From NCBI GenBank assembly GCA_026702755.1, contig JAPPBX010000102.1:24402-88401 (forward strand): a stretch of 64,000 bases of DNA. The letters are read 5' to 3'. The notes beneath the pieces were generated by a model. The model saw only the letters and a program-made list of their open reading frames with translations. It was not told the origin of the DNA and did no database searches. Position numbers and translations under genes: made by a program. The DNA comes from Candidatus Poribacteria bacterium (GTDB taxonomy: Bacteria; Poribacteria; WGA-4E; WGA-3G). Below, in pieces: positions 12,758-47,400 of the stretch (positions within the stretch are counted from its first letter, which is position 1; each line of letters starts with the position of its first letter).

Positions 12758-13492
12758 TTACTCGGTCGCGTCTTCCGCAGGTTCGTATCCGGCAACATAA
12801 TGCAGATACAGTGCCTCGAGGTCCTCTTCTTGAATCTCCTCACGCGTCAATTCTCGTTCAAGGTTGCCCTGCACGAGAATGCCAATCCTGTCGGCGATCT
12901 CTTTCGCTCGAAAGATGTCGTGCGTGGACATGAAAATGGCTTTGCCTTCCTCTTTTAGTTCACGGAGCAGATTCAGAAAATCGGCACCGCCCTTCGGATC
13001 GAGTCCGGAAGTCGGTTCGTCGAGTAGGACGGCTTGTGCGTTCTTCATAATCGCAATCGCAATGCCCAGGCGTTGGCGCATCCCTTTGGAGAAGGTCTTG
13101 ACGCGCCGTGTAAAGGCTTCCTCGGGTAAACCGACGCGTCCAAGGGTCGCATCGAGTTCTTCATTTGATACCTTCTTCCGTCCGCCGAGTTTCGCAAAAA
13201 AAGAGAGGTTTTGTCGTGCTGTAAAGTTGCGATAGAGTTCCACGTTCTCGGAGACGTAGGCGAGATGCTTCTTTGCTTCGAGTGGAAACTTGGGGATCTC
13301 AATGTCACCGATCAGGGCAGTACCGCTCGTCGGTTCGATGAAGTTCAGCAGCATAGAGATGGTCGTGCTTTTTCCAGCACCGTTCGCGCCGAGGACGACA
13401 TAGATTTCGCCGTCGTCTACTTTCAAATTCAATTCGTTGACGGCTAACACGCTTTCGTTGTAAACTTTCGTGAGGTCACGAGTTTCTAACAT
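12758..13492 (-). CDS. ABC transporter ATP-binding protein
   Basis: A 244-residue nucleotide-binding domain. Walker A is G-A-N-G-A-G-K-S-T (residues about 34-42), the signature is S-K-G-M-R-Q-R-L, Walker B is A-V-L-L-D-E-P-T-S-G-L-D-P, and the switch His is in S-T-H-D. It resembles CcmA/NatA-type ATPases that work with ABC-2 permeases. The start ATG 13492 has a strong GGAGGAG upstream. It is the only ABC ATPase in a window with eight ABC-2 permeases, so it may serve several. It leads the minus-strand operon NEW3, TolC-like, ECF sigma. Confidence 0.95.
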   Translation of the reverse strand: MLETRDLTKVYNESVLAVNELNLKVDDGEIYVVLGANGAGKSTTISMLLNFIEPTSGTALIGDIEIPKFPLEAKKHLAYVSENVELYRNFTARQNLSFFAKLGGRKKVSNEELDATLGRVGLPEEAFTRRVKTFSKGMRQRLGIAIAIMKNAQAVLLDEPTSGLDPKGGADFLNLLRELKEEGKAIFMSTHDIFRAKEIADRIGILVQGNLERELTREEIQEEDLEALYLHYVAGYEPAEDATE

Positions 13493-13640
13493 CGGGTTTC
13501 TCCTCCGGTTGATTTTCCGCTATATAATACCAGAAGTCTAAGGCGTTTTCAAACAAGACTTACTGGTTTAACCTAAGAGACGTTGTATTCCTTCATTCTA
13601 TTTTTTTGAAGTTTAGCCACGAAACGATATTTTGGCTTAT

Positions 13641-13680
13641 GTTATAGTGACGCGTTTTGAAGGTGAAAAGGTTGCATTAT
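13641..13680 (-). promoter_or_regulatory. ECF-like promoter ahead of the ABC/NEW3/TolC/sigma operon
   Basis: On the minus strand it reads TGCAACCTTTT, then CGTCACTATAAC, with exactly 17 bases between GCAACC and CGTCAC. An AAC-containing -35 and a CGTC-type -10 are usual for ECF sigma factors. It lies 150-190 bases before the ATPase start codon. Confidence 0.55.
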
Positions 13681-13980
13681 TTTCAAAAGAATCGTGAAAA
13701 ATATGAATTTTAATCTGAAATGAGTTGTTTCAATCCGCTCCGTGCATTTTGAGGTTGTTGTTACTACTACAAACGAGTTTCAAAAAAGTTGTGTTTTATT
13801 TTATTTTTAAATTTTGAAAATTGAGGGTTTGTCTGTTAGAGACCCTTCGTACGGTAAAAGATAGTAATAATTTTACCTATACACCAACACAATGGTGCGG
13901 TTCCTATGGGAAATCCGCAGAAATATCCAAGCGAAAACACCTCTTTCCGTGAAGTGGTGTATGATCCCCTTTTATAATTA

Positions 13981-14009
13981 AGGATATAAGTTTGGGACGA
14001 AAAGGGTGC
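13981..14009 (-). promoter_or_regulatory. Variant ECF-like promoter motif
   Basis: GCACCC and TATCCT separated by 17 bases on the minus strand, in the same ATGCA-CCC-TTTTCG context as the copy at 31767-31795. It lies about 490 bases before the ATPase gene, so its target is uncertain. Confidence 0.3.
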
Positions 14010-14071
14010 ATAAAACGAAGAATACTATCAAGACTTACGCAATTTTTTTACCAATAGGGACTACCATACGC

Positions 14072-14100
14072 CGCTGGCGAGGTTTTAAACCTCGCCAGCG
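14072..14100. repeat. 29-bp perfect palindrome
   Basis: A 14+1+14 inverted repeat (CGCTGGCGAGGTTT and complement), between the end of the 14189 gene and the ATPase promoter region. It is the same family as 19008-19034. Confidence 0.88.
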
Positions 14101-14188
14101 AGGAAGCAGTATGAACATACAAGATTTGGTATTTCCACAGTCTAATTACACACTGTTTCCTCAGAGAAGTTCCGAAAATAGTGGAGGT

Positions 14189-15748
14189 TCACACATCTGA
14201 ACGGATGAAGACGAGGAAGGCACCTGAAAGAAACACACCGAGCAATAAAACGAGGAGTAGCATATCCACTATCGCTGCATTGAACGTATCACTAAAAGTG
14301 ATCTTATCCTCAAATCTTGGAAGTGCCTGTGGTGAAATCGGTTTTTTAGACATTCCCTCGGGGACTCCGATGATATGGAGGCTTTCTGTATCGGCGCGAT
14401 CGGTTTCAGTGATGAAGTCTCGGAACTGTTTGATATGAATATCCACACCTTTGAGGAATTGCAAATGCCGGTTCAACCCTGTGCCGGTCATTGATTGAAG
14501 GGCGTATTGGACAATCGCTGCCGGTGAGAATCGGGTTACCATCCTTGCACGCTGGACCTGCGCGAGTTGTGCGCTTAAATGCTCGCGGTTCAGCCGTTCC
14601 CGAACCTCAACATCTCTGTTGATGAGCTCAGCCCTGATGCGCAATTCCTCCGGACCTGCCTTTTGGGATGCCAATTGCGCCACCGCTAATCTGAGTTCTG
14701 CCTCGTTCTCCTTCGCTAATTTTTCTGCCTCTTCAGGCGAGGTTTTCCAAAGTTCCTCGAGTTCATTGAGAAGACTGGCTGCAGGTGACTGTGCCTCTCG
14801 TTTGTTCCTCATTCGCTCGTCAAAATCTTCGTTAATCTGCTCAAGCGCGCTACTTCTTGCCATTTTCCGTTGGTGAGCGGTCTGGACAGGGGACATCCAT
14901 TTTGTGGCAAGCGTGCCGAGGGTAGAAGGCATAAAGACGACGAGTGCCACCCAAACAATCAATAGCACAACGAGACTGACTCGGCTATCCCGCGTGCTGG
15001 CGGAGACCATCAACCCTACTGCGATGAAGATGCTGGTATAGCCTGAAGCGATCAGCATAATCATTCCCAAACGTCCCCAGTCCGCTGCCCCGAGCTGTGT
15101 CCAACTATCTAAAGAAATCACTGCCAGATTCAGCAGAACTGCAAAGACGAAAGGAATGAGAACGGTTATTAGAGTCCCTAAAAATTTTCCGACTAACAAC
15201 GCGGGGCGAGAAATTGGGTTCGCGAGACACAACCGAAGCGTTCCCCTTTCTCTTTCGCCGGAGAGGGCATCAAACGTAAACAAAAGCGGGATGAAAGAGA
15301 GCAGATAGGTGATAATGAATACCCAGTCTATCTTGGTTGCTTTGGGACGAAGGTTCCGCGCATTCGGATTGGCAGTTGGATAGTCCAGCGACCAGATACT
15401 CCTTACCTTTCCGCTGGATCCTGTAGTTCTACTCCAAGACCCCCAATTTGTCGTTCCGCGATTCGGTAGAAAGGCATCCCCACCGTCTGCAATGAAAGTC
15501 AGTGCGGATGGCTGTTTGTAAAGTGTACCGGGCCCCTCTTTCAGGAGTTCATAGAGTTCTGTCCGGGACTGCAATTTGTTTTGGTCGGCGGTAATGTTCT
15601 CAGAGTACCTTCGGACTTTGTCTGGATGGCTCTGAAGATGCACCACAGCGTTCGTTACCATGAGTGCTGCCAGAATAAGCGTGGTTAAGGCGAAGCGGAG
15701 ACTGTTGAGATGGTCAAAGAATTCTCTTTTAACAATATGTCCGATCAT
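14189..15748 (-). CDS. ABC-2 type transporter permease
   Basis: A 519-residue permease with the N-terminal helix at 17-38, soluble loop to about 140, a helix block at about 145-300 with S-G-E-R-E-R-G-T-L-R-L-C-L-A-N-P-I-S-R-P, a charged soluble region (about 300-470) and a C-terminal helix. GGAG precedes ATG 15748. It lies 18 bases after the 15767 permease gene, so the two are co-translated and probably heterodimeric. It is closely similar to the 27557 product along its whole length (shared S-A-L-M-V-T-N-A-V-V-H-L type N-terminus and M-P-S-T-L-G-T-L motif). Confidence 0.9.
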   Translation of the reverse strand: MIGHIVKREFFDHLNSLRFALTTLILAALMVTNAVVHLQSHPDKVRRYSENITADQNKLQSRTELYELLKEGPGTLYKQPSALTFIADGGDAFLPNRGTTNWGSWSRTTGSSGKVRSIWSLDYPTANPNARNLRPKATKIDWVFIITYLLSFIPLLFTFDALSGERERGTLRLCLANPISRPALLVGKFLGTLITVLIPFVFAVLLNLAVISLDSWTQLGAADWGRLGMIMLIASGYTSIFIAVGLMVSASTRDSRVSLVVLLIVWVALVVFMPSTLGTLATKWMSPVQTAHQRKMARSSALEQINEDFDERMRNKREAQSPAASLLNELEELWKTSPEEAEKLAKENEAELRLAVAQLASQKAGPEELRIRAELINRDVEVRERLNREHLSAQLAQVQRARMVTRFSPAAIVQYALQSMTGTGLNRHLQFLKGVDIHIKQFRDFITETDRADTESLHIIGVPEGMSKKPISPQALPRFEDKITFSDTFNAAIVDMLLLVLLLGVFLSGAFLVFIRSDV

Positions 15749-15766
15749 CGTGTTTCTCCAATTTTT

Positions 15767-17242
15767 TTATACTTCAACTTTGATAAAAATCAGGAATGTC
15801 ACTATAAACAGGATCAGATTCATGAGAAAAAGGAGTAACACATCTGCTAAGGCGCGTTGTGCGTTTTCCGAGACATCCGTCCGTTCAAAGCGAAACTGGG
15901 GCAAATCCCACCAATCTACGGTGCCTTGATCAGAAGCGAACCATTGCCGACTCGCAAGCGCGTCTTTATCATGGAAATAGTCAATCAGCATCTGGCGGTA
16001 TCCTTGGGTGGTACGACTAAAATCTAACATGCCATCTAAATCGGTGCCTGCCCAGGCGGAGGTTGCAAAGGTATAGAGGCTTGCAGGACTGAATTTCATC
16101 AACCGTTTATCCCACGTTGCTTGCCGGATGTCTGTCCGTGCCAAGCGTTGTTCGCGTATCAACGCAGCTTTTTCTGCCAGGCGGATGTGCGTCGCACCGA
16201 TGAATGCCTGATAGTTTTGGAAATGCGGGACGGACGGTTCTGACTCCTCGTTCACTTTGGTCATGTTAAACTCATACCTTCTGCCGCTCCAAGAGCTTGA
16301 CCCTGAATATCCTATGTTAAACTTAGGGGGATCCCCCTCAAGCGGACTGTTTGCTAAAAATCGTTGTTCTTCCCGGTCTGCTTCTTCCCAAATTTGGTCA
16401 ATCTGTTGACTCGCGGACTGTCTTTCGGCGCGCATATCGCCCACCGGATTAATGGAAAAGCGACTCCAGTTCGGATAAACGAGGACCAAACCGACCCATA
16501 AGAACATACAGAGCATCAGGGATGTAGCCGTGCGCCGGGTTGTTGTGGAAATCAATAGTCCGATGAGGTAGAAAAGGGATAAGTAGACAATCGTCGTCCA
16601 GACTATCCCGCCAATCCGGAGCAGATCCGCTGTGCTGAACTGGATCGAACTGGCGAGGGAGCACAAAATCAACACCATCAGCAGACTCATTAGCACAGGC
16701 AGCAGCAAGCATATCATGGCAGCGATATATTTCCCAAACAGAATCAACCCGCGCCGCACGGGATGTGAGATAACCAGTCGCAAGGTACCGCTTTCCCAGT
16801 CGCCGGCAATTGCATCGTAAGCGAAGAGTAGGGACAGTAGGCTTAGGACGACTTGAAAGATGGATACCAAGTCAATCTGCGAAAAGAGATTTAGATACGG
16901 ATTCTCCAAGTTTCGTGCGGAGACACTTGAAATCATCGGTACCTCTCCGTGATAAATTTCGACGGTGGTTCCCAACTGCTTGTCCAACCCTGCACTAAAA
17001 AGACTTAGGGGGTTCGGAGGACGTTCAACAAAGAGTTCCAACCTTGAATAGGTTTCCGCTGCCACCGCTTTCTCACGATGAACTTTCTCTTGCTGGCTAT
17101 AACTCGCCACGCGGTTTTCGTGCTCGTCAATTAGCACAACTGTATTGGCGACGACGAGTAGGAGCGTAATAACGACCGCGGCGAGGAAGCGCGCGCTCAT
17201 CATAAGGGATAGAAGTTCTTGGTTTATCAGTGTGCGTAACAT
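15767..17242 (-). CDS. ABC-2 type transporter permease
   Basis: A 491-residue permease. It has an N-terminal helix at 18-38, a soluble loop, a helix block (about 125-265) with G-D-W-E-S-G-T-L-R-L-V-I-S-H-P-V-R-R-G, a soluble region with W-A-G-T-D-L-D-G-M and F-A-S-D-Q-G-T-V-D-W-W-D-L-P, and a C-terminal helix. GAGG precedes ATG 17242. It is closely similar to the 29128 product, and its partner 14189 is similar to 27557, so a two-gene permease module has been duplicated. It follows the 17265 gene by 22 bases. Confidence 0.9.
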   Translation of the reverse strand: MLRTLINQELLSLMMSARFLAAVVITLLLVVANTVVLIDEHENRVASYSQQEKVHREKAVAAETYSRLELFVERPPNPLSLFSAGLDKQLGTTVEIYHGEVPMISSVSARNLENPYLNLFSQIDLVSIFQVVLSLLSLLFAYDAIAGDWESGTLRLVISHPVRRGLILFGKYIAAMICLLLPVLMSLLMVLILCSLASSIQFSTADLLRIGGIVWTTIVYLSLFYLIGLLISTTTRRTATSLMLCMFLWVGLVLVYPNWSRFSINPVGDMRAERQSASQQIDQIWEEADREEQRFLANSPLEGDPPKFNIGYSGSSSWSGRRYEFNMTKVNEESEPSVPHFQNYQAFIGATHIRLAEKAALIREQRLARTDIRQATWDKRLMKFSPASLYTFATSAWAGTDLDGMLDFSRTTQGYRQMLIDYFHDKDALASRQWFASDQGTVDWWDLPQFRFERTDVSENAQRALADVLLLFLMNLILFIVTFLIFIKVEV

Positions 17243-17264: not shown

Positions 17265-18962
17265 CTATTTGGTTTGATTGATGGATTCCTGAATGGAGAT
17301 TCGTGCTCGAAAGGCATTGATACCTCCTTTCTCACCGACCCAACCCCCGGTAGCCCTCAATTGAAAAACCTGTCCTTTGTCAAATTGATATGTGATTGTT
17401 CCTGTTTCACCGGGTTGAATCCCCCATGCCTGTGCAAGTATGCTCTCGGGTGTTTCTTCTGTGGGGGGATCGCTATTGCCATCAAACAGATCGAACGAAC
17501 CTACAGGGGCTGCGCGACCGACGTGAATATCAATGGTGAGTGTGCCACCGTTTTCAAACGCTGTGGCATCTATTTTAATAACGGTGTCATCTTGAGAACC
17601 TGCCACAGGTGCCTGAAAAGTGTCTAATACCTCTATTGAGGGTTGCGCACGATCAAGCACAACGTTCAGACTGCTTGATAAAGCGACAGGGTCTTTCTCG
17701 CCCAATCCGGGACGTTTTCCTTCCAATGATTCCACAAGGAACAACTGATAATGTTCTGCCTTCATGTACCACTCGTGCCTGGAGAGTTCGTTGACGGGTT
17801 GCCTGCCCATGATTCCAAGTTCAGGCGAGATAATCAAGCAATCTGTAGGTGAGTGTCTCTTCCACGCCCGAACGATTGTTTGGGGCAAAGGAAGCATTTC
17901 GTCAATACCTTTTGCATCGCGCAAACGTTTCATATCGGTATTGAGCACCCATGTGTTGACGAAATTTTCATTCAAGAATTTGATGTTCCCATCATCAGAG
18001 AGGGCAGTTGCCCTCAAACCTTTGCCACTCCCGCCACATGCTTCGTCATCAAGCGGACCATTTATTGAGATAACATGAATGAGCTTCTGTTGTGTCTTTG
18101 CTATTTCCAACGCTTCGTTTACCGATACCCAATTGATTTGTTGTGATTTATAAAAACGCAGTGTCAGGACACGTTTGGCTTCTGCTAAGGTTATTGCTTC
18201 AGAAAATTGAGTGTCTTGAATTATATTTTCCGTCCCCGTACGGAGTTCGATTTGTGGACAAAAGCCCATATCCGCACCAAAGGAGCGACCACCGGGACGA
18301 TGATAGCGGTTGACATCAAAATTGATTGTGCGTTTGGGAACGGACATCTTGAAGAAGGCAATTTTCCCTGCTGTCCGGTTGATAACAAGATTCCCAGTAA
18401 ATTGTGAGGGTGTGAACCAGCCGTTCTCTAACTTAAACTCTGCATGAATCCGCAATACGATATCCGCAAATTCAGCGTTATAAGCGCGCAGACACGCCCA
18501 TGCCCCGCGAGAGTCTCCCCAATTGAGGTGCATATCCAGATTGGGATTGGGATGAAGTTGTCTCAGCAATTCCAGTAATCCATCTTGTTCAATCTGCCAG
18601 ACTTCGCCAACAGAAACACTATTTCCTTTTTTTGTAAGATTTTCGTGAGGAGATCTCTTTAATTCCTGCCGAGACGGTTTTTCTCTTCCCTTCTGCAGGC
18701 GTGCTTCAGTCGGGAGAAATGCCTCAAACACCGAAGCAGGATGATGCTTTTCAGGTTCGGCGACTCGCAGATTCGCCAGTGCATCCCACGTCAGATGGAA
18801 GTTGTCTTGGGTGTACTCAATTGGGGCAATGAAACCCTTAATCAACACTTTGGCGTTGTGGTCAAGCGTGAGTGCAATTCTATTAGAGGTAGATGCCTCA
18901 TCCGCGAATCCATATTGTAAAGATAGGATAAAAATCAGACAACCGGTACCTAATGTTTTCAT
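17265..18962 (-). CDS. Exported thioredoxin-like protein, Gly at the selenocysteine position of its paralogues
   Basis: A 565-residue protein from ATG 18962 (a TTG at 18977 is also in frame). Signal peptide residues 1-20 end G-F-A-D. An N-terminal domain I do not recognise (about 25-285; motifs R-I-H-A-E-F and W-F-T-P-S-Q-F) is shared with the two selenoprotein candidates downstream. Residues about 290-430 look thioredoxin-like: a beta strand (L-I-H-V-I-S-I-N), then D-E-A-C-G-G-S-G-K-G-L-R, F-V-N-T-W-V-L-N-T-D, and a strand pair at L-I-I-S-P-E-L-G-I-M-G. Where the paralogues have in-frame TGA this gene has GGC (18033-18035). The last ~115 residues form a beta domain (I-E-V-L-D-x-F to A-F-R-A-R-I-S-I) also fused to the upstream sigma factor. 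Compared with the 23167 protein it has a ~25-residue insert near residue 90. It probably acts outside the cytoplasm; its redox activity may be lost. Confidence 0.82.
   Translation of the reverse strand: MKTLGTGCLIFILSLQYGFADEASTSNRIALTLDHNAKVLIKGFIAPIEYTQDNFHLTWDALANLRVAEPEKHHPASVFEAFLPTEARLQKGREKPSRQELKRSPHENLTKKGNSVSVGEVWQIEQDGLLELLRQLHPNPNLDMHLNWGDSRGAWACLRAYNAEFADIVLRIHAEFKLENGWFTPSQFTGNLVINRTAGKIAFFKMSVPKRTINFDVNRYHRPGGRSFGADMGFCPQIELRTGTENIIQDTQFSEAITLAEAKRVLTLRFYKSQQINWVSVNEALEIAKTQQKLIHVISINGPLDDEACGGSGKGLRATALSDDGNIKFLNENFVNTWVLNTDMKRLRDAKGIDEMLPLPQTIVRAWKRHSPTDCLIISPELGIMGRQPVNELSRHEWYMKAEHYQLFLVESLEGKRPGLGEKDPVALSSSLNVVLDRAQPSIEVLDTFQAPVAGSQDDTVIKIDATAFENGGTLTIDIHVGRAAPVGSFDLFDGNSDPPTEETPESILAQAWGIQPGETGTITYQFDKGQVFQLRATGGWVGEKGGINAFRARISIQESINQTK
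18000..18015 (-). other. SECIS-position hairpin without the GU loop
   Basis: GAGGGC/GCCCTC stem with loop AACT, 17 bases after the GGC that replaces the TGA codon. The stem matches the hairpins at 22047-22062 and 23800-23815, but the loop lacks the GU present in both. Confidence 0.5.
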
Positions 18963-19007
18963 TTTAAAATATCCCAAAAAAGATTGAATAGGATTTACAC
19001 ACCCTTT

Positions 19008-19063: not shown

Positions 19064-20386
19064 TTACCGAATGGAAATTCGTGCGTGAAAAGCATTGATG
19101 CTCCCTTTCTCACTGAACCAATCGCCAGTAGCACCCAATTGAAAGACTTTGCCTTGATTGAATCGATAAGCGATTATCCCTGTTCCACCGGGCGGAATTC
19201 CCCATTCATGTGCGAGTCTGTTGTTGGGTATGCCTTCTGTAGGCAGCTCACTGGTCCCATTGAACAGATCAAACGAGCCAGATGCTTTGCCGCTACCGAC
19301 TCGGATATCAATGGTTAGCATACCACCGTCTTCAAACGCGGTAGCATCAATTTTTACAACGGTATAATCCTGATGCTCTCTTTCCGGCGTCCGAAAAAAG
19401 TCTAAGACCTCTGTTTGAATCTGTTGTATCTCTTCTATTTCTGCTTTTGTCTCTTGCGTTTGCGCACCTATTACTCGGAGGCTGTCTACTTGTGGATTGG
19501 ATCTACTATTTTTACCCGATGTGTCTATCTTACCCAGTTGTGTTCGCACAGCAGGTTTCGCCTTGATAATGGGTTTCGCTGTTGCCTCCACAATGTCAAC
19601 CTTTATAGCAGAGACTGCTTCCAAACTATAGGGTTGTTGGAAATGGGATAGATATTTATTGCTTATTCCGAGAGTGAGTGTCGCCAAAATAGCGACTGAC
19701 GCGGCTATCGCCCATGGCACTATGGGTTTGCCGTTTGAAGAAGGAACAGGTTTGATGCGGTTGGCTTCTCGTATAATGTTCTCGGTTAAATTGCTGGGCA
19801 ATTGTACGCTACTGAGCACTTCACTAATCAAAATTTCTTCGCCGCGTGCCTGTAAACGCTTTCGCGCACGGCTAAGCCGACTCTTAATTGTGTTCGCCGA
19901 TACACCCAAAAATTTGCTAATATCCTTCACTTTCATTTCACCAAGATAATGGAGCGTCACCACCGTCCGTTCGCTCTCCGGCAGTCTTTCCAGAAGTCTT
20001 TTGACGATTTTATGCCGTTGTTCAGTCGTTTCCAGGTCGAGTTGTTCCGATACATGATGTGTATAAGAGGCTTCTTCTATTTCTTCCACGGGTGTGTCTT
20101 CCAGTGATTGCATCATGTATCTGTTTCTTTGAATCCAATTAATACAAAGTCGGTCTACAATGACATAAAGCCATCCAGAAAACTGATTGGGATTCTTTAG
20201 TGTTGAGAGGCTTTTATAGACTCGAAGGAAGGCATCTTGCGTAATTTCTTCAGCAAGGTGAAAGTCCCCAAGTTTGCGCCACGCCAGGGCGTGAACGCTT
20301 TTCTGATGTTTTCGGACTAATGCACCGAATGCCTCTTCGTCCCCGGACAAAATTTTATGAATTAGTTGAACATCGTTTTCTTCCAT
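19064..20386 (-). CDS. ECF sigma factor fused to a transmembrane helix and an exported beta domain
   Basis: A 440-residue protein. Sigma region 2 is at about 7-85 (A-F-G-A-L-V-R-K-H, I-T-Q-D-A-F-L-R-V-Y-K-S, F-S-G-W-L-Y). Region 4 is at about 130-185 (L-P-E-S-E-R-T-V-V-T-L-H-Y-L, S-A-N-T-I-K-S-R-L-S-R-A-R-K-R-L). A single hydrophobic helix lies at 221-243, followed by a linker, then residues 325-440, a beta domain closely similar to the C-termini of the 17265 and 20997 proteins (A-T-A-F-E-D-G-G-M-L-T-I-D-I; W-F-S-E-K-G). With the sigma part in the cytoplasm, the C-terminal domain would face the periplasm. AAGGAAG precedes ATG 20386, and the gene follows the 20400 membrane protein by 13 bases. 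No separate anti-sigma is seen; the fused segment may be the sensor. Confidence 0.9.
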   Translation of the reverse strand: MEENDVQLIHKILSGDEEAFGALVRKHQKSVHALAWRKLGDFHLAEEITQDAFLRVYKSLSTLKNPNQFSGWLYVIVDRLCINWIQRNRYMMQSLEDTPVEEIEEASYTHHVSEQLDLETTEQRHKIVKRLLERLPESERTVVTLHYLGEMKVKDISKFLGVSANTIKSRLSRARKRLQARGEEILISEVLSSVQLPSNLTENIIREANRIKPVPSSNGKPIVPWAIAASVAILATLTLGISNKYLSHFQQPYSLEAVSAIKVDIVEATAKPIIKAKPAVRTQLGKIDTSGKNSRSNPQVDSLRVIGAQTQETKAEIEEIQQIQTEVLDFFRTPEREHQDYTVVKIDATAFEDGGMLTIDIRVGSGKASGSFDLFNGTSELPTEGIPNNRLAHEWGIPPGGTGIIAYRFNQGKVFQLGATGDWFSEKGSINAFHARISIR

Positions 20387-20399
20387 CGGAATACTTCCT

Positions 20400-20774
20400 T
20401 TATGCTTTGGGTTCTTCTACCTGTTCGGGTTGAGGGTTGCGGAATTTTCCCAGTCGCCACTCTCTATAAACGAGGAAACCACCAAGCAAACATAAGCAGC
20501 TGTATAGCAAGGGTTTTACCAGGGCAACACTCATTAGGAAATCTCCGATATTCATATTCTGCACTCGCTCACCGGTTATTTCACTCGCTATCCATCGATC
20601 CATATATAAACCAAGGACTTGTTCAAAAATCGAATTAAACATTCCACTGGTAAGGAGTATCGCGCTAATGAGTATCAACCCCTTTGACCTCGTCCGAAGA
20701 CATAAAACCACCAGTAGCACTGCAAGTGCCAACCATACAATAATATTCAGACCGTAAAAAACGCTATTAAACAT
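20400..20774 (-). CDS. Small membrane protein upstream of the fused sigma factor
   Basis: A 124-residue protein with three predicted transmembrane helices (about residues 5-24, 30-50 and 80-102) and a charged C-terminal tail (P-Q-P-E-Q-V-E-E-P-K-A). The frame extends to 20807, but ATG 20774 has GGAGG nine bases upstream and is preferred. It is not recognised as a known family. Its stop is 13 bases from the sigma factor start, so it could modulate or anchor the membrane-tethered sigma factor; this is context only. Confidence 0.7.
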   Translation of the reverse strand: MFNSVFYGLNIIVWLALAVLLVVLCLRTRSKGLILISAILLTSGMFNSIFEQVLGLYMDRWIASEITGERVQNMNIGDFLMSVALVKPLLYSCLCLLGGFLVYREWRLGKFRNPQPEQVEEPKA

Positions 20775-20795
20775 CGTCAGAACCTCCAACGAGAT

Positions 20796-20859
20796 AGCGA
20801 AACCCAACGCAAACCTGCCATGTTTGTAGCGTTTGACCTAAAGAACGTTGGGTTTCGCT
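20796..20859. repeat. Inverted repeat upstream of the small membrane gene
   Basis: Perfect 14-base arms (20796-20809 and 20846-20859; AGCGAAACCCAACG and complement) around a 36-base loop. CAACCTACGG-type sequence follows at about 20940. It covers the expected promoter region of the 20774 gene. It could be an operator or another dispersed element. Confidence 0.65.
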
Positions 20860-20996: not shown

Positions 20997-22976
20997 TCAC
21001 TTGGCATCATAAATGCGCCAGATACCTTCCACTTTTCGCATCTTAACAGGTACTTCCGGCGGCTGCGCCGTCGGTACTCTTAATCGGAAGTGGAATTCAT
21101 CACCCACATATTCGCTGCTTACAATCTCCATCTGACTCAACATTTGACGTATCTGAGGACGCATATCCTCTGGCATATCCTCAAAATCACTTTCAAATGT
21201 CTCTCTGGCATCTCCTGTAAGCATCGAGCGTATTGTCTCTGAATCAAGATTTTTAAATGCTTCCACGAAAGTGTTCATTACATCTTCCGGAGATTGCCCC
21301 GTGCGCGCTGATGACACTTTTCTCGGCTCTGAATTCGGTTCGACAGAGATTTTTGCCCAAAAAGCGTTGACCAACCCTTTCTCGCTGAACCAACTGCCAG
21401 TACCCCCCAACTTAAAGAGCTGCCCTCGGTCAAAAGGGTGAACGATTTGTTCACTCATGCCCGGCTCAATATCCCACGCAGAAGCCAACGCATTATCAGG
21501 TACACCTGTTGTGGGAAGTTCCGTATCTCCGGCGAATAGATCGAACGAACCCTGCCCTTCGCCATTGCCCACCCAGATATCAATGGTGAGTTTACCACCG
21601 TCTTCAAACGGTGTGGTGTCAATCTCAACGGTTGTGTAATCCTGATTACCCCGGCCGGGCGCGCGAAAAATGTTCAGGATCTCCATTGAGGGTCGCTGAG
21701 CGTTGAGTGCGACGTGTCGACTACTACTCGGTCCGCGGTGTTTCCCAAGTGCCGCCAAAGCATCCTTTAGAAATGTTTCATACTTTTTCACGTCAATATT
21801 GGACTCGCCCGGTTTGCGATAGGGTAAATGACTTATCAACTCTAACTCGGGTGAGAGTATAAAAGTGTTTACCGAGCGACCTACCTTGTGTTGTACCACA
21901 GCCTCTTCAAGTGTTGTAGAAATCGTGCTTGCCAATCTACTTACCGGTTCACCCTTCGTCCCGCTCTGAAATTCAGGAAGGTCCCCTAAAAGTACGAATA
22001 CATTGACAAATTGTTCGTTGAGAAGTCCTATAATTTTTGAATTGGAGAGGACACCTGCCCTCAAAGATTTGCCGCTCCCTCAGCACGATTCATCATCAAA
22101 TACACCCCATGTCATCAGCACATGAATAGGGCGATCCTTCGCTTGTGCCTGTGCAACAACCTCTTCAATAGGGAACCTCTTGATCTCGGCAGACTTGTAG
22201 AAGGCAGCCGCCAACATCGCCTTCGTCTCTTCTTCTGTAATGGCAGTCTCCCAGACAATATCACTCTGATCATCTGCGTTCTGTCCGATAAGTTCCATGC
22301 GTGGGACGAAAACCATATCCGCTGCGTTAAAGGCGTTGATGTCAACATTGGTATTGCGAGAAGGGAGATAGAGCCAAAATTCTCGAATTGTCCCATTGTT
22401 CCGATTCAGCACCAATCGTCCAGTAAATTGTGCCGGTGTAAAGTAAGCAGGAGCGTCCTTATCCAAGAGGAATTCCGCATGAACTCTGAAAACAATTTCT
22501 GCATAATCGGACGATAGTGCCCGTAGACACGCGAAGCCACCGTCCGACTCCATACCACTTACGGCTCTACGATGATCTGCTGTCGTATACCAGCCACCCG
22601 GATTTAAATGCATTTCAGCAGTTGCCCCGGGGTGAAATTGACGAAGAAAGGGGACAATCTTGTTAACATCAAGTTCCCATAGGTCTCCGACGGTAACATC
22701 TCCGTTGGGGAAAAAGGCTGTGAAAGCGTCTGCTTTATATTCCTGACTTGGATGCGCCGGTGAAAGGTTGTTGAAGATGGCTGCATTTTCCGGTGAGTAA
22801 TTGGACAGACCCAATGCTGAATCTGCAATAGGTTCCCAATAGGCACGCACTTGTAAAGTTGCCTTCTCATCCAATGTATTCTCCATGTTTATCTTATTAG
22901 CGGCACTTTGAAGGGTTAAGTTCAACCCTAAAACCCATATTACTAATATTGAGACAATCAACCAATTCCTTTTCAT
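20997..22976 (-). CDS. Candidate selenoprotein: exported thioredoxin-like protein with C-U-G-S-G-K motif
   Basis: Read through the in-frame TGA at 22080-22082, this is a 659-residue protein in one continuous frame (1980 bases). GGAG precedes ATG 22976. Residues 1-26 are a signal peptide. Residues 30-270 are the family's unrecognised N-terminal domain (H-A-E-F, Y-F-T-P-A-Q-F, F-V-P-R-M-E-L). The thioredoxin-like domain runs about 270-400, with D-D-E-S-C-U-G-S-G-K-S-L-R and Sec as residue 299. A beta domain shared with the 19064 sigma factor covers about 431-547, and an NTF2-like domain about 561-659 (V-M-N-T-F-V-E-A-F-K-N-L-D). The Sec aligns with the first Cys of a C-x-x-C-K motif, with a Cys just before it. 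Without recoding, the protein would break in the middle of its active site. A hairpin follows at 22047-22062. The redox partner is unknown. Confidence 0.82.
22047..22062 (-). other. Candidate bacterial SECIS hairpin, first selenoprotein gene
   Basis: In the mRNA, GAGGGC pairs with GUCCUC (one G-U pair) around the loop AGGU, starting 17 bases after the UGA. Bacterial SECIS elements lie just downstream of UGA, within the coding sequence, and usually show GU in the apical loop, as here. Folding has not been computed. Confidence 0.55.
22080..22082 (-). other. In-frame TGA, probable selenocysteine codon
   Basis: It follows a Cys codon (TGC) and precedes G-S-G-K-S-L-R. The same TGA occurs at the equivalent codon in the 23167-24672 paralogue. 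No other stop interrupts either frame. Confidence 0.82.
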
Positions 22977-23166: not shown

Positions 23167-24672
23167 TCACTTGACATCATAAATGAACCACACGCCCTCC
23201 ACTTTTCGCATCTTAAAAGATTTCTCCGGCGACTGCGGCAGTCTTAATCGGAAGTGGAATTCATCATCTACATATTCGCTGCTCAAAACCTCCATCTGAC
23301 TTAACATTTGACGCATCTGGGTACGCACATCTTCTGGCAAATTTTCAGTATTCATTCCAAATGCTTCTCTGGCATCCTCTGTAAGCATCGGAAGCATTTT
23401 CTCTGAGTCAAGATTCTTAAATGCTTCCACGAAAGCGTTCATTACATTTTCCGCTGAGGTTCGCTGAACGTCGAGAACGTTGAGAGCGACATGTCGAGTA
23501 CTACCTAATCCGGGGCGTTTCCCTTCTAACGATTCCACGAGAAACCGACGGTAAGCCTCCTCCATGTTATTTATCGCATTGAATAGTTCATTGACCGGTT
23601 GCCGTCCCATCAGTTCCAGGTCTGGCGATATTACCAAGCAATCTACTGGAGAATGCCGCTTCCACCCACTAATAATTGTTCGCGCCAAAGGCTGCATTCC
23701 GTCAATTCCCTTCGCTTCACGTAATCTTTTCATATCAGTGTTCAGCACCCAAGTATTGACAAATTTTTCGTTTAGCGATTCGATGATTCGGTCATTGGAG
23801 AGGACAACTGCCCTCAAGGTTTTTCCGCTCCCTCAGCACGCCTCGTCGGTGAGCGGTCCATTGATCGAAACCACATGAATCGGCCGTTGTAGCGACTTTG
23901 CTATCTCTAACGCTTTGTCCATTGCTACCCATTCGATTTGTTCCGACTTGTAGAAACGGTGTATCAGCCTACGTTCCGCCTCTTCCTGGGTGATGGCTTC
24001 GGTGAATTGCGTGTCTGACGTGATAGCCTCTGTACCCGCAAGAAGTCCTATTTGGGGACAGAAGCCGGCATCCGTACCGTAGGAGGAACTGTTCTTGTGT
24101 TGCCGGTTCACATCGAAGTTGAGTGTGCCTTCAGGGACGGACATCTCAAAGAAGGCGACCTTAGCCTCGGCACGGTTGATAACCAAACGCCCAGCAAACT
24201 GGGACGGGGTGAACCAACCGTCCTCTAAAGCAAATTCTGCATGAATGCGAAACACAATTTCGGCAAAGAGATCATTGTAAGCGCGAAGCGTTGCCCATAA
24301 TCCTGATGAATCCACAGGACTGTGCATCTCCACGTATGGGTTGGGGTGAAGTTGCTTCAGCAATTCCAGAACGCCCTCCGGTTTAACTTGCCACAGTTCG
24401 CCAACGGAAACAGGTTGATGCGGCAGAAATGCGTGGAAAACAGACGCTGCATATCGCTTTTCTGGCTCGGCGACTTTCAAGTTCGCTAATGTGTCCCAAT
24501 TCAGATGAAAGTTGTCTACTGTAAACTCAATCGGGGCAATGAAGCCTTTGACAGAGACTTCTGACATGCTATCAAGGTTAAGTGTGATTTTGTTAGGTAT
24601 GGCGTTCTCATCAGCGTTGAGTTGTCCACTCATCATCACCAGAATGAGAAGTCCAATCGTTAAAGTTTTCAT
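23167..24672 (-). CDS. Candidate selenoprotein: second thioredoxin-like paralogue with C-U-G-S-G-K motif
   Basis: Read through the in-frame TGA at 23833-23835, this gives a 501-residue protein in one frame (1506 bases). AAGGAG precedes ATG 24672. Residues 1-21 are a signal peptide (ending L-N-A-D). The family N-terminal domain covers about 25-245 (R-I-H-A-E-F, W-F-T-P-S-Q-F, F-C-P-Q-I-G-L). The thioredoxin-like domain covers about 250-385, with D-E-A-C-U-G-S-G-K-T-L-R and Sec as residue 280. An NTF2-like C-terminal domain (about 405-501) matches the end of the 20997 protein. It lacks the beta domain that the 20997 and 17265 proteins carry. An ECF-like promoter lies 120-155 bases upstream (24794-24825). 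It is presumably exported and involved in thiol or peroxide chemistry; the substrate is unknown. Confidence 0.82.
23800..23815 (-). other. Candidate bacterial SECIS hairpin, second selenoprotein gene
   Basis: Same GAGGGC/GUCCUC stem at the same 17-base distance after the UGA, with loop AGUU, which keeps a GU. Confidence 0.5.
23833..23835 (-). other. In-frame TGA, probable selenocysteine codon
   Basis: It follows TGC (Cys) and precedes G-S-G-K-T-L-R, at the same alignment position as the TGA at 22080-22082. Confidence 0.82.
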
Positions 24673-27556: not shown

Positions 27557-29086
27557 TTATACTTCTGCGCGTATGAAGATAAGAAATGCCCCCGAGAAAA
27601 ATACACCGAGCAGTAAAACGAGCAACAGCAGATCTAAAGTCGCGGTGTTGAACGTATCGCTGAAGGCGATCTTATCCTCAAATTTCGGAATCGCTTCACT
27701 TGAGAACGGTTTCTCGGACATGCCTTCAGGGATGCCGATGAGGTGGCGACTTTGCATGTCTGCTCTGTCGGTTTCGACGATGAATTGTCGGAATTGTTTT
27801 GTGTAATCGTGCACGCGTTCTAAGTATTGCAAGTGGCGGTTGAAGCCGGTACCTGCCATTGATTCAAGGGCGTATTGGACAATCGCCGCTGGTGAGAACC
27901 GGGTTACAACCCTTGCGCGTTGTACCTGTACGATTTGTGCGTCTAAATACTCGCGGTTAAGGCGTTCTCGGGTTTCTATGTCTCTGTTGACGAGTTCCGC
28001 CTTGAGTGCCAGTTCTTCATCACCTTCTGTTTCCCACGCCGCCATATACTTTTCCGCTTCGGCTCTGGCAGCTTCAGGGTCAGTTTCAAAAAGTTTCTGA
28101 AGTTCACTTAAGCTTGGAAGGTTAGGGGTCTTTTTTTCTTTGATTGCGTTCAATCGATCATTATAGTCAGCGTCAATCTGACCAAGGGCTGCGTCTCTTG
28201 AGGCATGAAATTGATCGATCGTTTGGACGGGTGGCATCCATTTTGTGGAAAGGGTGCCGAGGGTTGACGGCATAAAAATCACAGTGGCTACCCAAATCAA
28301 TAGAAGCACAACGAGACTTATCCGAGGCTCTCGCGTGCCAGCAGAAACCATCAGTCCCAATCCGACAAAGATACCCGCGTAGCCGAAAGCAATCAGTAGA
28401 ACCAATCCTAAACGTCCCCAATCGGCTGTACTTAGTTGTGTCCAATTGTCAGTCGAGATCACCGCCAGATTCAGCAATACTGCGAAAACAAACGGAATGA
28501 GGACAGTTATTAAAGTGCCTAAGAATTTACCGATCAACAGAACAGGGCGCGAAATCGGATTCGCGAGACACAATCGCAAGGTTCCCTGTTGTCGCTCACC
28601 TGAAAGCGCGTCGAAGGTGAATAAAAGCGGAATAAAGGAGAGCAGATAGGTGATGATGAATACCCAATCTATCTTTGTTGCCTGCGGACGCAGGTCTCCT
28701 TCATCTGGATTCGCGGAGCCGTAACTCAGCCACCAATTGCTTTTCGCCTTCCACCCTGGACCACTTTTGGACCAAGTCCCCTCGCTCTTCGGTGTATGTC
28801 CCGGTAGATAAGCGTTGCCGCCGTCTGCAATGAAGGCAAGCGCAGAGGGACGTTTATGGAGGTTCCCTGGTCCCTTTTCGGCTAAAGTATACAACTGCGT
28901 CCGAGATTTCAACGTATTGAGGGACTCGGTAACATTCTTGGAATAATTACGGACCCTTTCTGAGTGTGTCCGAAGATGCACTACGGCGTTGGTGACCATT
29001 AAGGCGGAAAGTATCACAACCGTTAGAATAAAACGCAGGCTATTGATGTGATCAAAGAGTTCTCGTTTGATAATATGCCAAATCAT
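27557..29086 (-). CDS. ABC-2 type transporter permease (paralogue of the 14189 gene)
   Basis: A 509-residue permease with the same topology as the 14189 product: N-terminal helix 17-38, soluble loop, helix block at about 140-300 with S-G-E-R-Q-Q-G-T-L-R-L-C-L-A-N-P-I-S-R-P, charged soluble segment and C-terminal helix. Long stretches match the 14189 product (T-K-I-D-W-V-F-I-I-T-Y-L-L-S-F-I-P-L-L-F is present in both). AAGGAAA precedes ATG 29086. It lies 41 bases after the 29128 gene; the pair duplicates the 14189/15767 module. Confidence 0.9.
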   Translation of the reverse strand: MIWHIIKRELFDHINSLRFILTVVILSALMVTNAVVHLRTHSERVRNYSKNVTESLNTLKSRTQLYTLAEKGPGNLHKRPSALAFIADGGNAYLPGHTPKSEGTWSKSGPGWKAKSNWWLSYGSANPDEGDLRPQATKIDWVFIITYLLSFIPLLFTFDALSGERQQGTLRLCLANPISRPVLLIGKFLGTLITVLIPFVFAVLLNLAVISTDNWTQLSTADWGRLGLVLLIAFGYAGIFVGLGLMVSAGTREPRISLVVLLLIWVATVIFMPSTLGTLSTKWMPPVQTIDQFHASRDAALGQIDADYNDRLNAIKEKKTPNLPSLSELQKLFETDPEAARAEAEKYMAAWETEGDEELALKAELVNRDIETRERLNREYLDAQIVQVQRARVVTRFSPAAIVQYALESMAGTGFNRHLQYLERVHDYTKQFRQFIVETDRADMQSRHLIGIPEGMSEKPFSSEAIPKFEDKIAFSDTFNTATLDLLLLVLLLGVFFSGAFLIFIRAEV

Positions 29087-29127
29087 TTTTTTAATTTTCC
29101 TTGCGGTTTGATGTGGTTCGTTTGGTA

Positions 29128-30615
29128 TTAGACTTCAATTTTGGTGAAAATCAGAGATGTCAGCGTGAACAGAACCAGATTGATTAATAGGAGTAAAAAC
29201 AATTCGGGCAGTGCCCGCGTTGTGTTTTCCCAAACATCCGCCCGCTTAAAACGGAACTGTGGCAAGTCCCACCAGTCTACTGTGCCTTTGTCAGAAGCGA
29301 ACCATTGCCGACTGCCGAATGCATCTTTGTCGTGGAAATAGTCAATGACCGTACGCCGGTAACCCTGAGCGGCTTGCACAAAATCAAACATGCCCTCCAA
29401 ATCCGTGCCTGCCCAAGCGGAGGTTGCAAACGTATATAAGCTGGCAGGACTGAGTTTCATTAAACGTTCATGCCATATCGCTCTCCGGAGAGAGGTGGTA
29501 TCTAAAGTCTGTTTTCGGACTAAAGCGATCTGTTCTGCCGAACGGATGTACAAGGCACCCATAGTCGCATGATAGTTTTGAACGTGCGGCACGAGGGCAT
29601 CTGATTGATTTCCCAATTTCAGATCTATTCCATATCGTCTACTGAGGTGCCCGCCTGATGAGAAACTATTTGACTGCTGAACATCCAGATTAAACTTTCG
29701 AGGTTTGCCTTCGAGCGGACTGTTCGCTAAAAATTGGCTTTCCTCTCTGTCAACCTCCTCCCAAATCTGTTCAATCTGTTGATTCGCCGATGAATGTATT
29801 GCGCGCGTATCACCCACCGGGGTGATGGCAAATCGGCTCCAATTTGGATAGACGAGTACCAAAGCTACCCACAAAAACATACAGAGCATCAATGATGTGG
29901 CAGTCCGGCGCGTTGTTGTGGAAATCAACAGTCCGATCAGATAAAAAGCAGACAAATAGATGGTTGTCGTCAGAACTATCCCGCCGATCCGAAGGAAATC
30001 TTCTCCACCCAATTGGATTGAACCGACAGTAGATAACAGGATCAGGACCATCAGCAGGCTCATCAGTACGGGGAGCAGCAGGCAGGCCATAGCACCAATA
30101 TATTTGGCAAGTAGAATGGATCCACGCCTCACTGGATGGGAGATAACCAGGCGTAAGGTGCCACTTTCCCAGTCTCCTGCAATTGCGTCATAAGCGAAAA
30201 GCAGTGCCATCAGGCTCAAAACGACTTGAAAAATGAGGACGAGATCAATCTTTGAAAAGAGGTTGAGAAACGCGTTATCGAGACTTCGCGCCGAACCATC
30301 TGAAATCATCGGGACGCGACCGTAGTAGATGTCAAAAGTACTTCCAAGCCGCTTATCCAATCCCGCGCTAAAGAGACTTAAGGGGTTCGGCGGACGTTCA
30401 ACAGATAGTTTTAGCATTGAGTAGGTTTTCGCTTCCTGCGCTTTCTGACGATGAACATTCTCTTGCTGGCTATATCTCACCAATCGACGCTCGTAATCTT
30501 CGAGAAGCACAACGGCATTGGCGAAAACGAGGAGAAGCGTAATCACAACAGCAGCAAAGAATCGCGCACTCATCAAATGCGTTAGAAGCTCTTGGCGGAT
30601 CAGGTTTCGTAGCAT
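29128..30615 (-). CDS. ABC-2 type transporter permease (paralogue of the 15767 gene)
   Basis: A 495-residue permease. It has an N-terminal helix (18-38), a helix block with G-D-W-E-S-G-T-L-R-L-V-I-S-H-P-V-R-R-G, the soluble motif W-A-G-T-D-L-E-G-M and F-A-S-D-K-G-T-V-D-W-W-D-L-P, and a C-terminal helix. AAGGAAG precedes ATG 30615. It pairs with the 27557 gene. The cognate ATPase is not adjacent and may be the 12758 product or lie outside the window. Confidence 0.9.
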   Translation of the reverse strand: MLRNLIRQELLTHLMSARFFAAVVITLLLVFANAVVLLEDYERRLVRYSQQENVHRQKAQEAKTYSMLKLSVERPPNPLSLFSAGLDKRLGSTFDIYYGRVPMISDGSARSLDNAFLNLFSKIDLVLIFQVVLSLMALLFAYDAIAGDWESGTLRLVISHPVRRGSILLAKYIGAMACLLLPVLMSLLMVLILLSTVGSIQLGGEDFLRIGGIVLTTTIYLSAFYLIGLLISTTTRRTATSLMLCMFLWVALVLVYPNWSRFAITPVGDTRAIHSSANQQIEQIWEEVDREESQFLANSPLEGKPRKFNLDVQQSNSFSSGGHLSRRYGIDLKLGNQSDALVPHVQNYHATMGALYIRSAEQIALVRKQTLDTTSLRRAIWHERLMKLSPASLYTFATSAWAGTDLEGMFDFVQAAQGYRRTVIDYFHDKDAFGSRQWFASDKGTVDWWDLPQFRFKRADVWENTTRALPELFLLLLINLVLFTLTSLIFTKIEV

Positions 30616-44464: not shown

Positions 44465-47400
44465 GTGTCAAAAAATAAAAATATGTATGGCGTAACTTGC
44501 AAGTCGATACACAAAAGTCGAAATCGACGTGATGGTGGAGATTACCCTTCCACCAAATTCCCAATCCGCTCGGGTGTGGTGAATTTTCTCTTTTTTCAAA
44601 TTTTTATCTGTCTCGCAGCCCTAATGATAACTCCCAACGTTTGGGCAGCTCTGACGAGTATGTCGGTGGATGCAAGCGGTGATTTGATTTTCAGGGGAGG
44701 TCGTGATAGGCTGCTTATTACTTTCACTGTTGATGATAGAACTGATGAAGATGGGGATCCGTATACTGTTACGGCTACGAGGGGTGATGTGGATAGAGCA
44801 CTCATTGCTCAAGGGACTGTGTTGCCAAACGAGACTGTTCGCATCCTCTGGGACGGAAGTGCTAACGGGCAACAACTTCCAGACGGGCCATATACCATTA
44901 AAGTTGTTCTCAACAGAGAGAAACAGGAAGGCGAAGAGGATGGCGATAGAGTAAAGACAGGACCAGATATTATTTTGGATGCAACTCCCCCTCGCATCTT
45001 CGAGATAGAAGCGGATGACGATGACACTGAAGCGGATGACACTATTAAAATTACCGAAGGCAAAGTTATTGAGACATCCATCTCTTCCATTACAGTAACG
45101 CCGGCTCGAGATGACGGGAGTCCAATTGATTTCGGTCCAAATTTATCGAATATCGTTTTGAAGAATGAGCGCGGGACTACCGTAGCGGGTTCCTTCAACT
45201 ACACAGACGACGGCACAGATGGCAGCACACTAACCCTTACTTTAGAAAATCCGCTGGATGCCGTTTCTGAGAACGGGACCTACACACTTGAGATTACCCT
45301 GTTTGATAAAGCCCGTAATGACTCAAAAAGCCAGACGAAATTTACCTTTGATTTTGGTGATGAGCTACCCAGTTTACCAACAAGCATTGCCACCAACAGA
45401 GGGAGACTTACACCTGGTGCTTATGTTAACCAACAGTTAAGTTATGTTGAAGCGACATTCGCAGATAACCTTGGAAGTGGCATTGAATCCCCTAATTTCA
45501 ACATTGAACTTTTTCGTGTTACCCAGTCCGATGGTACTGTATTGAATCCTCCTCAACAGATACCCGGGCAACAGACACAACTTTCTACGAATAGAATTCG
45601 ATTGCAGCTCCTATCACCCTTGTCACCGACAGGAGGTCTTCAAGACGGTGAGTATGAAATTCGGATTACTGATCCTGACAAAGAAGGTGCCGATGCTTCA
45701 ATTCTTACGATGCGTTTTCACTATGACAATCTTGCACCGGAACTTGTTTCACTAGAACCCGTCGAGGAACCCGTCGAGGCCGATAAATTTAACCGTATCG
45801 GTGACACAATCTACCACAAACTTCCACTTACCCAGTTTGTCGTTGAATTCAGGGATGATTCTGTGGTACGGGTCCCTCGAATTGTGTTCGGTACTCCCGG
45901 GGAGGATGGCATCAATGCGCTTGGGGGTAGGTCTTTCCCTGGCACAAATAGTAATACACTAATCTACATATTGGATAGACCGATTGTGAGTCGAGATGGA
46001 AGCCAAGATGGACGCTATATACTCAATGTTCAGGCGACAGACATCCTCGGTAATACCAGGACTTACAATTATCGGATTATCTACGATACGCAGCCACCGA
46101 CGCTCATCTCTACGATGCCAGCTGCCAATGAAACTGTCTCCGAGTTATCACAGGTTGAGGTGAAACTCAATGAGAAAACCAGCGGCATTGATTTCATTCA
46201 GAGCAGCTTCCGACTCACTCGTAATGATAATGGCGTACAAGTAGATGTACCTGTGAACATAACGAGTAACGGCACGGGTACAATCACGCTGACGCTCACG
46301 GAACCGATTGCCCTAGACGGTTCAGACGACGGTACCTATAGAATTGAAATAACCCCTACTGACCGGGCACGCAACAACAGTGGCCCAACTGCCGTGACTG
46401 CCGTGCGCGAGTTCTACCTTATCAGTCAAAAGCGTGAACCCGAAATCCGACTGACAATGCCTGCAACTACGACAGTCAACAGTTTGACGACGGTTACAGC
46501 CGAAATCACTGGTTATATTGGTGCAGGGATTGATTTTGATGCTTCGATGCTGACTGTCAGAGACTCTCAAGGTGCTCTCATTGCACAGGAAGATCTTACG
46601 CGTGATGAAGCGAGCAACCTGCTAACTTGGACTGCTCGGACACCTATCGCACGTGATGGAAGCGCAGATGGTACATACACGGTAACTGCGACATTTGTCG
46701 ATTTTACAGGACAAAGTTTTACACAAGAATTCCGGGTCGTTTTAGATACACAATTTCCCACGATTGAAAATGTTCAAGTGGCAGCCGAATCCCCAACGCT
46801 GCTTGCTGAGGATCGCACCACAGATATTGCCGACTCTGTTGGTCAGATAACTGTTGCGTTTGATGAGACGGCAGGTGATGTTGATTTTGGAGCGACGGTT
46901 GTATCGTTGATGGGACCCGGTGAGACCGTTATTCCTGTCAACCGAGTTGACAATGGACAAGCCGTTTTGACACTCAATTTCCAAGCCTTGACGCAGCGCG
47001 GTGAATATACATTGTCAATCACGCCACAAGACCTCGCTGGGAATCAGAGTGCGGCACCGTTCGTCTATCGGTTCCGGATTGATGTCGCCTTGCCAGCAGT
47101 TACTTCTGTTCTTATTGATGGTAAGGCTGGAACGCTCGTTTATGTCAACGGTACCGCTGCTAACATCGTCGCCAATTTCACCGATTTGAGCGGTGTTGGT
47201 GTCGCCTTAGGTGATGGTGGCTCAACTATCACTGTCACGAACCCCAACGGCATTCCTGCCCCTGGTATCACCACAGCCACTGGCACAAACCAATTGACGT
47301 GGACTCCCATTGTTCTTCCGACAGATGGGAGTGCGGATGGTCGCTACACCGTTACGGTTACACCGATTGATAACGCCGGAAGGCAGGGCGATGTCGTCTA

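Follow-up and report, generated by a model that had tools for sequence, protein, structure and literature searches.

In a 64,000 nt stretch of DNA from a Candidatus Poribacteria bacterium (contig JAPPBX010000102.1, positions 24,402 to 88,401; this whole stretch is called the window here), the minus strand carries a gene, SelN gene 1, that is interrupted by an in-frame TGA at 22080-22082. We conclude, with a probability of about 0.9, that this codon is read as selenocysteine (Sec) and that the product is a bacterial branch of animal selenoprotein N (SelN or SELENON), a predicted exported thioredoxin-fold selenol-thiol oxidoreductase with Cys298-Sec299. Insertion of selenium and redox activity are both predictions from sequence. 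The first-pass annotation of this DNA had described two open reading frames (ORFs) in one frame, split by a single TGA and together giving 659 residues. Our translation agrees with this: the gene runs from the ATG at 22976 to the stop codon at 20997-20999 in a single frame, and TGA 22082-22080 is its sole interruption. The site reads DDESC-U-GSGKSLRAGVLS. The tandem gene 2 has the same C-TGA-GSGK break (DEAC-U-GSGK). The terminal TGA of gene 1 has no hairpin resembling a selenocysteine insertion sequence (SECIS) 3′ of it, a further TGA follows six codons on, and it looks like an ordinary stop. The coordinates of all features are listed in Table 1.

Homology to animal selenoprotein N

The first-pass annotation had taken the vicinal Cys-Sec family for one not yet described. 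This did not hold, since both the site and the core match animal selenoprotein N. The site and its flanks pointed to SELENON, and sequence comparisons put this to the test. In BLASTP, a human SELENON sequence, the first 306 letters of which are identical to a databased human entry, aligned with 98/345 identities (E 7e-40) and placed its Sec opposite U299. Elephant-shark SELENON (P0140) aligned with 117/385 identities (30%, E 6e-43). A profile-profile comparison of 28 bacterial members with 10 vertebrate SELENON proteins reached a probability of 100 (E 2.9e-52; 32% identity over 346 columns). It put Cys298 and the flanking GSGK opposite the vertebrate SC and SG. Both sides have the core segments FRIHAEF, FTPxQFTG and WGxxDDxSC.GSGxxLR..VL..S..I..LNE.F, and in both a thioredoxin-like domain surrounds the Sec. 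Passages in the literature describe SELENON as a protein with an SCUG motif, a thioredoxin domain and an EF-hand (PMC12839072, PMC8967691, PMC7474598), so that the Sec is at the same place according to this motif (PMC12839072, PMC8967691) and to the human sequence aligned above. In vertebrates, the gene models frequently break off at ...WGALDDQSC, the same point at which 104 of the best 120 bacterial proteins end (out of 1582 found, see below).

The animal and the bacterial proteins also differ. The animal form has a membrane anchor in the endoplasmic reticulum, whereas the bacterial form has an export signal or no signal. The SECIS-like hairpin of the bacteria lies within the coding sequence, while the animal element is located in the 3′ untranslated region. 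In the bacterial form, a beta-sandwich and an NTF2-like domain are additional, the genes occur in many copies within a genome, and there are fusions to sigma factors. Pfam gave no EF-hand match in P0001 or P0002, and the alignments with SELENON start past the EF-hand region. We therefore place these proteins in the SelN core family, where they form a bacterial branch, and do not class them as animal-type SELENON. Judged by sequence comparison, the gene 1 product is a member of this branch, homologous along the catalytic core. In an unrooted tree of 155 bacterial cores and six vertebrate proteins (frames open upstream were omitted), the bacterial side forms one clade against the vertebrates (support 1.0). 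Since this tree cannot be rooted, we make no claim on the direction of transfer. SelN has been reported in the sponge Amphimedon (in a table and a SECIS list of PMC3473315) and in algae, there nearly only in the Sec form (in a passage of PMC7539508). These proteins are eukaryotic and known here from papers; the bacterial branch was compared with vertebrate sequences only.

The codon, the hairpin and the Sec machinery

Altogether, we compared 160 distinct family sites, which comprise the loci from the homologue searches and the other listed site-covering places fetched from genomes of the phylum. One partial match and two sites too near a stretch end were omitted; the DNA search of the phylum gave more matches than were listed and one place matching at the C-terminus only was not fetched, so that the site counts are lower bounds. 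The codons are TGC-TGA at 155 sites, Gly at four (two GGA, two GGC) and Ser (TCA) at one. The residues around the site in TGA members are S/A-C-TGA-G/A. The Cys codon before the TGA is TGC in 155/155, whereas TGT prevails over TGC in the remainder of these genes (114 vs 87). An extra search recovered nine real sites, two of which (L189, L190) were already among the 160. The seven new ones belong to three genera of two further families in the order, and all have TGC-TGA and a complete hairpin. Four other pattern matches were out-of-frame noise, and L196, L198, L200 and L201 yielded no site. With regard to the residue at this codon in homologues, animal SELENON has Sec (SCUG), the databased protein P0005 has Cys in one chain, and P0004, P0058 and P0061 have Gly. 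According to the first-pass annotation, the sequence after the TGA is conserved in both paralogues. This is true for the flanks, but not every paralogue shares the TGA itself, since the one at 18977-17265 has a Gly codon (CGGSGK).

That the gene is a pseudogene or that the TGA is a sequencing error has a negligible probability. Nothing speaks for it beyond the stop itself, and the same codon recurs at 155 of the 160 sites in many assemblies, including single-contig ones, with conserved coding downstream. This recurrence and the conservation of the hairpin refute the explanation in practice.

In the tree, several copies without Sec branch within Sec clades: the Ser copy with a support of 0.99, the fusion that has Cys with 1.0, and the main Gly group, among which TGA copies are interspersed, with 0.996. 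The placement of P0004 is weak (0.45). Since copies without Sec are nested in Sec clades, Sec is most likely the ancestral state of the bacterial family. Of the five non-Sec copies, three retain a hairpin of the TGA type and the other two carry AACT as their loop, which would fit Sec losses of different age. At one locus (L167, G036:C82), TCA replaces TGA while the hairpin is still complete, as if Sec had been lost recently. The divergent full-length SelN proteins P0198 and P0216 have SCWG or SGWG at the site and look like inactive copies.

The genome of the window encodes SelA (523 bits), SelB (351 bits) and SelD (356 bits), and on contig C86 its tRNA-Sec (78 bits) is a close neighbor of selB, some 120 nt away. 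Thus, all the components that the first-pass annotation had named for a check on Sec decoding are there. Within the phylum, a tRNA-Sec above the family cut-off was found in 74 of 84 genomes and SelB in 75 of 84, or in 54 of the 55 better genomes. The selD gene of the window genome (L020, G000:C96:159939-160862, minus strand) has one in-frame TGA itself (KCAGUASK), followed by GCTC...GAGC, which could form a hairpin. SelD of this genome is thus probably a selenoprotein as well.

In TGA members the SECIS-like hairpin starts 18 nt 3′ of the TGA; an alternative form found elsewhere is GAGAGCG-GGTC-CGCTCTC. There are two registers, with A at position 24 in 101 sites and G in 54, and the stem is complete in either register at 150 of the 155 sites. 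In synonymous-codon shuffles, redrawn from the usage of the same genes, a complete stem arises in 2.0% on average and 7% at most. Compared with such shuffles, the folding energy has a z of −1.90 and −2.36 in two intervals over the hairpin and of −0.55 to +0.53 elsewhere (random sample of up to 60 genes). All 155 sites use AGR for the Arg encoded in the stem, whereas CGN dominates elsewhere, and loop position 25 is G in 154/155. None of the 41 complete family genes ending in TGA has the hairpin after this stop. The loop resembles that of the E. coli fdhF SECIS, and binding by SelB is putative. Machinery genes, conserved hairpin and Sec or Cys homologues together support the candidate selenoprotein of the first-pass annotation.

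The UGA could also terminate translation, with the downstream half starting separately at a TTG or CTG about 16 nt later to give a two-chain protein. Gene callers do split the genes in this way, so that the 104 proteins mentioned above end at the Cys, many databased downstream halves start with MRAGVLS or similar, and an NTG is found at +16 in 153 of the 155 sites. However, 45 of these NTG are CTG, and one TTA and one TTT also occur. The Gly and Lys codons between TGA and NTG keep their meaning in 155/155 while the third base varies, and the cut would hit the active-site loop of the predicted thioredoxin-like domain. Moreover, the homologous animal site uses Sec (SCUG) and P0005 has a Cys in one chain. 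Taken together, this makes two chains very unlikely. Suppression or a changed genetic code, by which UGA would specify another amino acid (Gly or Trp, for instance), is just as improbable. The four Gly codons among the 160 sites, of which the two GGA are one base from TGA, and the Trp in two databased homologues are in line with it, but 41 of the 151 complete family genes end in a TGA stop, always without the hairpin, the full Sec system with tRNA-Sec is present, and Sec occupies the homologous animal site.

Several results weigh against a Sec-containing, exported SELENON homologue. The databased vertebrate SELENON models used here end at or skip the Sec, and the aligned place of Sec thus rests on the published SCUG motif and the human sequence used in BLASTP, which agrees with the databased entry over its first 306 letters. 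Only one databased homologue has Cys, and Gly is commoner, which implies that the residue is dispensable in some copies. Single-sequence folds of the hairpin region are unremarkable against shuffles (z −0.55 for gene 1 and −0.13 for gene 2), so that the support for the hairpin comes from the comparison among relatives. Covariation within each register is modest: in the first, 96.3% of the cells are paired, compared with 91.8% on average and 95.4% at most in shuffles; in the second, 96.8% are paired, compared with 95.4%, and some shuffles attain the observed value. Lastly, a crude rule that misses some signals sorted the 151 complete members into 47 with a hydrophobic N-terminus (12 of them lipobox-like), two sigma fusions and 102 with neither. 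Export is therefore not general, and, as far as the N-termini indicate, members of the family probably act on either side of the membrane.

Domains, predicted mechanism and sigma-factor fusions

Of the domains proposed by the first-pass annotation, the thioredoxin-like one is backed by a fold match, and the one shared with a sigma factor by 55% identity between residues 426-548 of the gene 1 product and the neighboring extracytoplasmic function (ECF) sigma factor. The NTF2-like domain is weak: SnoaL_2 matched the paralogue P0002 with E 0.0085, which is under Pfam's cut-off, and P0001 had no Pfam match. Searches of Pfam and NCBIfam yielded nothing specific for the SelN genes, the Pfam thioredoxin models did not match at E up to 1, and sequence searches of the PDB copy used returned no credible relative (nothing, or E 0.12 and weaker). 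Because beta-sandwich matches dominated the Foldseek search with the full model, the core was also folded by itself. Residues 261-415 have the same predicted thioredoxin-like fold as AGR2/AGR3, ERp19, DsbD-gamma and DsbH. Many such thioredoxin-like oxidoreductases carry a CxxC-type site, whereas the bacterial SelN site is C-U-x-x-G. The place of the second Cys is taken by Gly302, which is invariant in the 28 alignment rows, as is the Cys before U299.

Based on these observations, SelB with Sec-tRNA would read the UGA at the SECIS-like hairpin, and the chain would be exported through its N-terminal signal and fold into the SelN beta domain, the thioredoxin-like domain, the beta-sandwich and the NTF2-like tail. 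Because U299 lies in a thioredoxin-like domain, is preceded by an invariant Cys and has an invariant Gly in place of the resolving Cys, Cys298 may be its resolving partner in a cycle between selenol-thiol and a vicinal selenenylsulfide. The substrates might be disulfides or peroxides, which would be reduced in the envelope. The sigma-factor fusions and neighbors suggest that some members report the redox state to transcription.

Among 65 listed proteins, 20 are 576-581 residues long, contain sigma-70 domains and stop at the Cys that precedes the UGA. Precomputed Pfam matches identify sigma70 regions 2 and 4 in P0014 and the 19 similar proteins (PF04542, PF04545, PF08281). In the DNA of L060 and L062 the frame continues through the TGA to 690 and 699 residues (counted from the first possible start) and contains a complete hairpin; L079 and L080 show the same fusion, seen from inside the sigma part. 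The order in the fusion is sigma domains, hydrophobic segment, linker and SelN. Sigma genes adjoin two of the seven SelN loci of the window genome within the stretches fetched. Two more ECF sigma factor genes are located just downstream of a four-gene SelN cluster (L202:15897-16472 and 17842-18408).

A protein that contains Sec might mainly be a redox sensor or partner binder and not a turnover enzyme. The ECF sigma factors that are fused to SelN and have a hydrophobic segment (L060, L062), the sigma genes beside two of seven clusters and the inactive-looking Gly copies in several genomes would fit such a role. On the other hand, the rule found only two of 151 complete members to be fused and most are unfused, and the SCUG motif of SELENON is said in a passage of PMC12839072 to confer oxidoreductase activity. 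We consider a sensor without turnover unlikely and continue to favor the oxidoreductase. A wider model for the phylum is tentative, at odds well short of even. Its bacteria would use a Sec-containing, membrane-anchored ECF sigma factor, in which the Cys-Sec of the outer SelN domain would sense redox and directly control transcription, with free SelN proteins as partners or effectors in one circuit; SELENON would be a descendant of such a bacterial redox-signalling module, or be related to it through an exchange between sponges and symbionts.

Genomic context, spread and significance

The window genome is 5.84 Mb in 126 contigs and has 13 SelN members with TGA and one with Gly; a separate count of cores also gave 14. 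On both sides (window 12758-17242 and 27557-30615, minus strand), the SelN-sigma cluster is flanked by ABC-2 permease pairs, and these flanks also contain an ABC (ATP-binding cassette) ATPase and DUF3108/DUF4097-like genes, all on one strand. A Pfam search of the small ORF at 20400..20807 gave no match. Elsewhere, the plus strand has a single very large open frame of 3131 aa (window 44465-53860).

Table 1. Features of the SelN locus in the window.
Feature	Position	Strand	Basis
SelN gene 1, 659-residue SELENON homologue, one TGA read through (U299, predicted)	20997..22976	−	translation and homology to SELENON
N-terminal hydrophobic segment, residues 1-27, likely export signal	22896..22976	−	sequence; helix 2-25 in model
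SelN-specific beta domain, residues 28-260 (FRVHAEF, FTPAQFTG)	22197..22895	−	aligned along SELENON; core refolded alone
Thioredoxin-like domain, residues 261-415, C298-U299-GSG-K303	21732..22196	−	predicted fold match
Beta-sandwich domain, residues 419-547, common to the ECF sigma factor of the locus	21336..21722	−	sequence and fold match
C-terminal alpha+beta domain, residues 563-658, NTF2/SnoaL-like (weak)	21003..21290	−	model; Pfam for paralogue only
Vicinal Cys298 codon TGC, gene 1	22083..22085	−	relatives
Predicted Sec codon TGA (Sec299), gene 1	22080..22082	−	translation and relatives
SECIS-like hairpin, gene 1, GAGGGC-AGGT-GTCCTC, 18-33 nt past TGA	22047..22062	−	fold; codon and terminal-stop controls
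SelN gene 2, tandem, next gene upstream, 501 aa, U280 (predicted)	23167..24672	−	translation
Predicted Sec codon TGA, gene 2	23833..23835	−	translation and hairpin check
SECIS-like hairpin, gene 2, GAGGGC-AGTT-GTCCTC	23800..23815	−	fold
Small ORF between SelN gene 1 and sigma factor, hydrophobic segments (by eye)	20400..20807	−	
ECF sigma factor, hydrophobic segment (by eye), shared C-terminal beta-sandwich	19064..20386	−	Pfam and sequence comparison
SelN paralogue without Sec (CGGSGK with Gly codon GGC), loop AACT on a retained hairpin stem	17265..18977	−	sequence

The search of databased proteins found 1582 at E <= 0.001. The best 120 of these consist of full-length non-Sec members and upstream halves ending at the Cys; the organism names among them are four, all Candidatus Poribacteria, and members from other phyla may exist beyond these 120. 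The six named proteins in this set are called "hypothetical protein." P0067 has the SelN beta domain with a long mid-domain insertion (perhaps coiled-coil) and ends before the Sec region. A scan of genome contigs with a single protein returned one locus. Family matches, which include ones to the C-terminal domain only, were found in 67 of 84 genomes of the phylum, and a profile search of 25 outer genomes detected the SelN core in five, all of the same order.

A 2007 survey took SelN as animal-specific, according to a passage of PMC2375036. In 2026, an inventory of prokaryotic selenoproteins put 119 families or subfamilies into its Table 1, and no SelN-like protein or sigma factor is among them (PMC13188914). 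SaoL, SaoC, HgcA, MbdU and KCU-star, described in the same source, have a vicinal Cys-Sec ("CU") like bacterial SelN and are unrelated to it by name and domain. In PMC4807772, selenoprotein N appears in the title of a reference only. SelA and SelB co-occur in most sponge symbiont bins, as stated in a passage of PMC5649159. We found no report of a prokaryotic or poribacterial SelN in the open-access literature, and an earlier report elsewhere is possible. Searches of PDB sequences and of the open-access literature gave no support for an existing structural study on a poribacterial SelN. SelN in bacteria, the expansion of the family and the sigma-factor fusions are new here.

A sigma factor with a predicted Sec would, if true, be a new kind of selenoprotein. 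Mutations in SELENON lead to human myopathies (according to abstracts), and little is understood of its chemistry, in part since this selenoprotein is bound to a membrane and difficult to purify (in a passage of PMC7474598). The bacterial homologues have no EF-hand, some have no membrane segment, and natural Cys, Gly and Ser variants exist, which would make them tractable models of SELENON.
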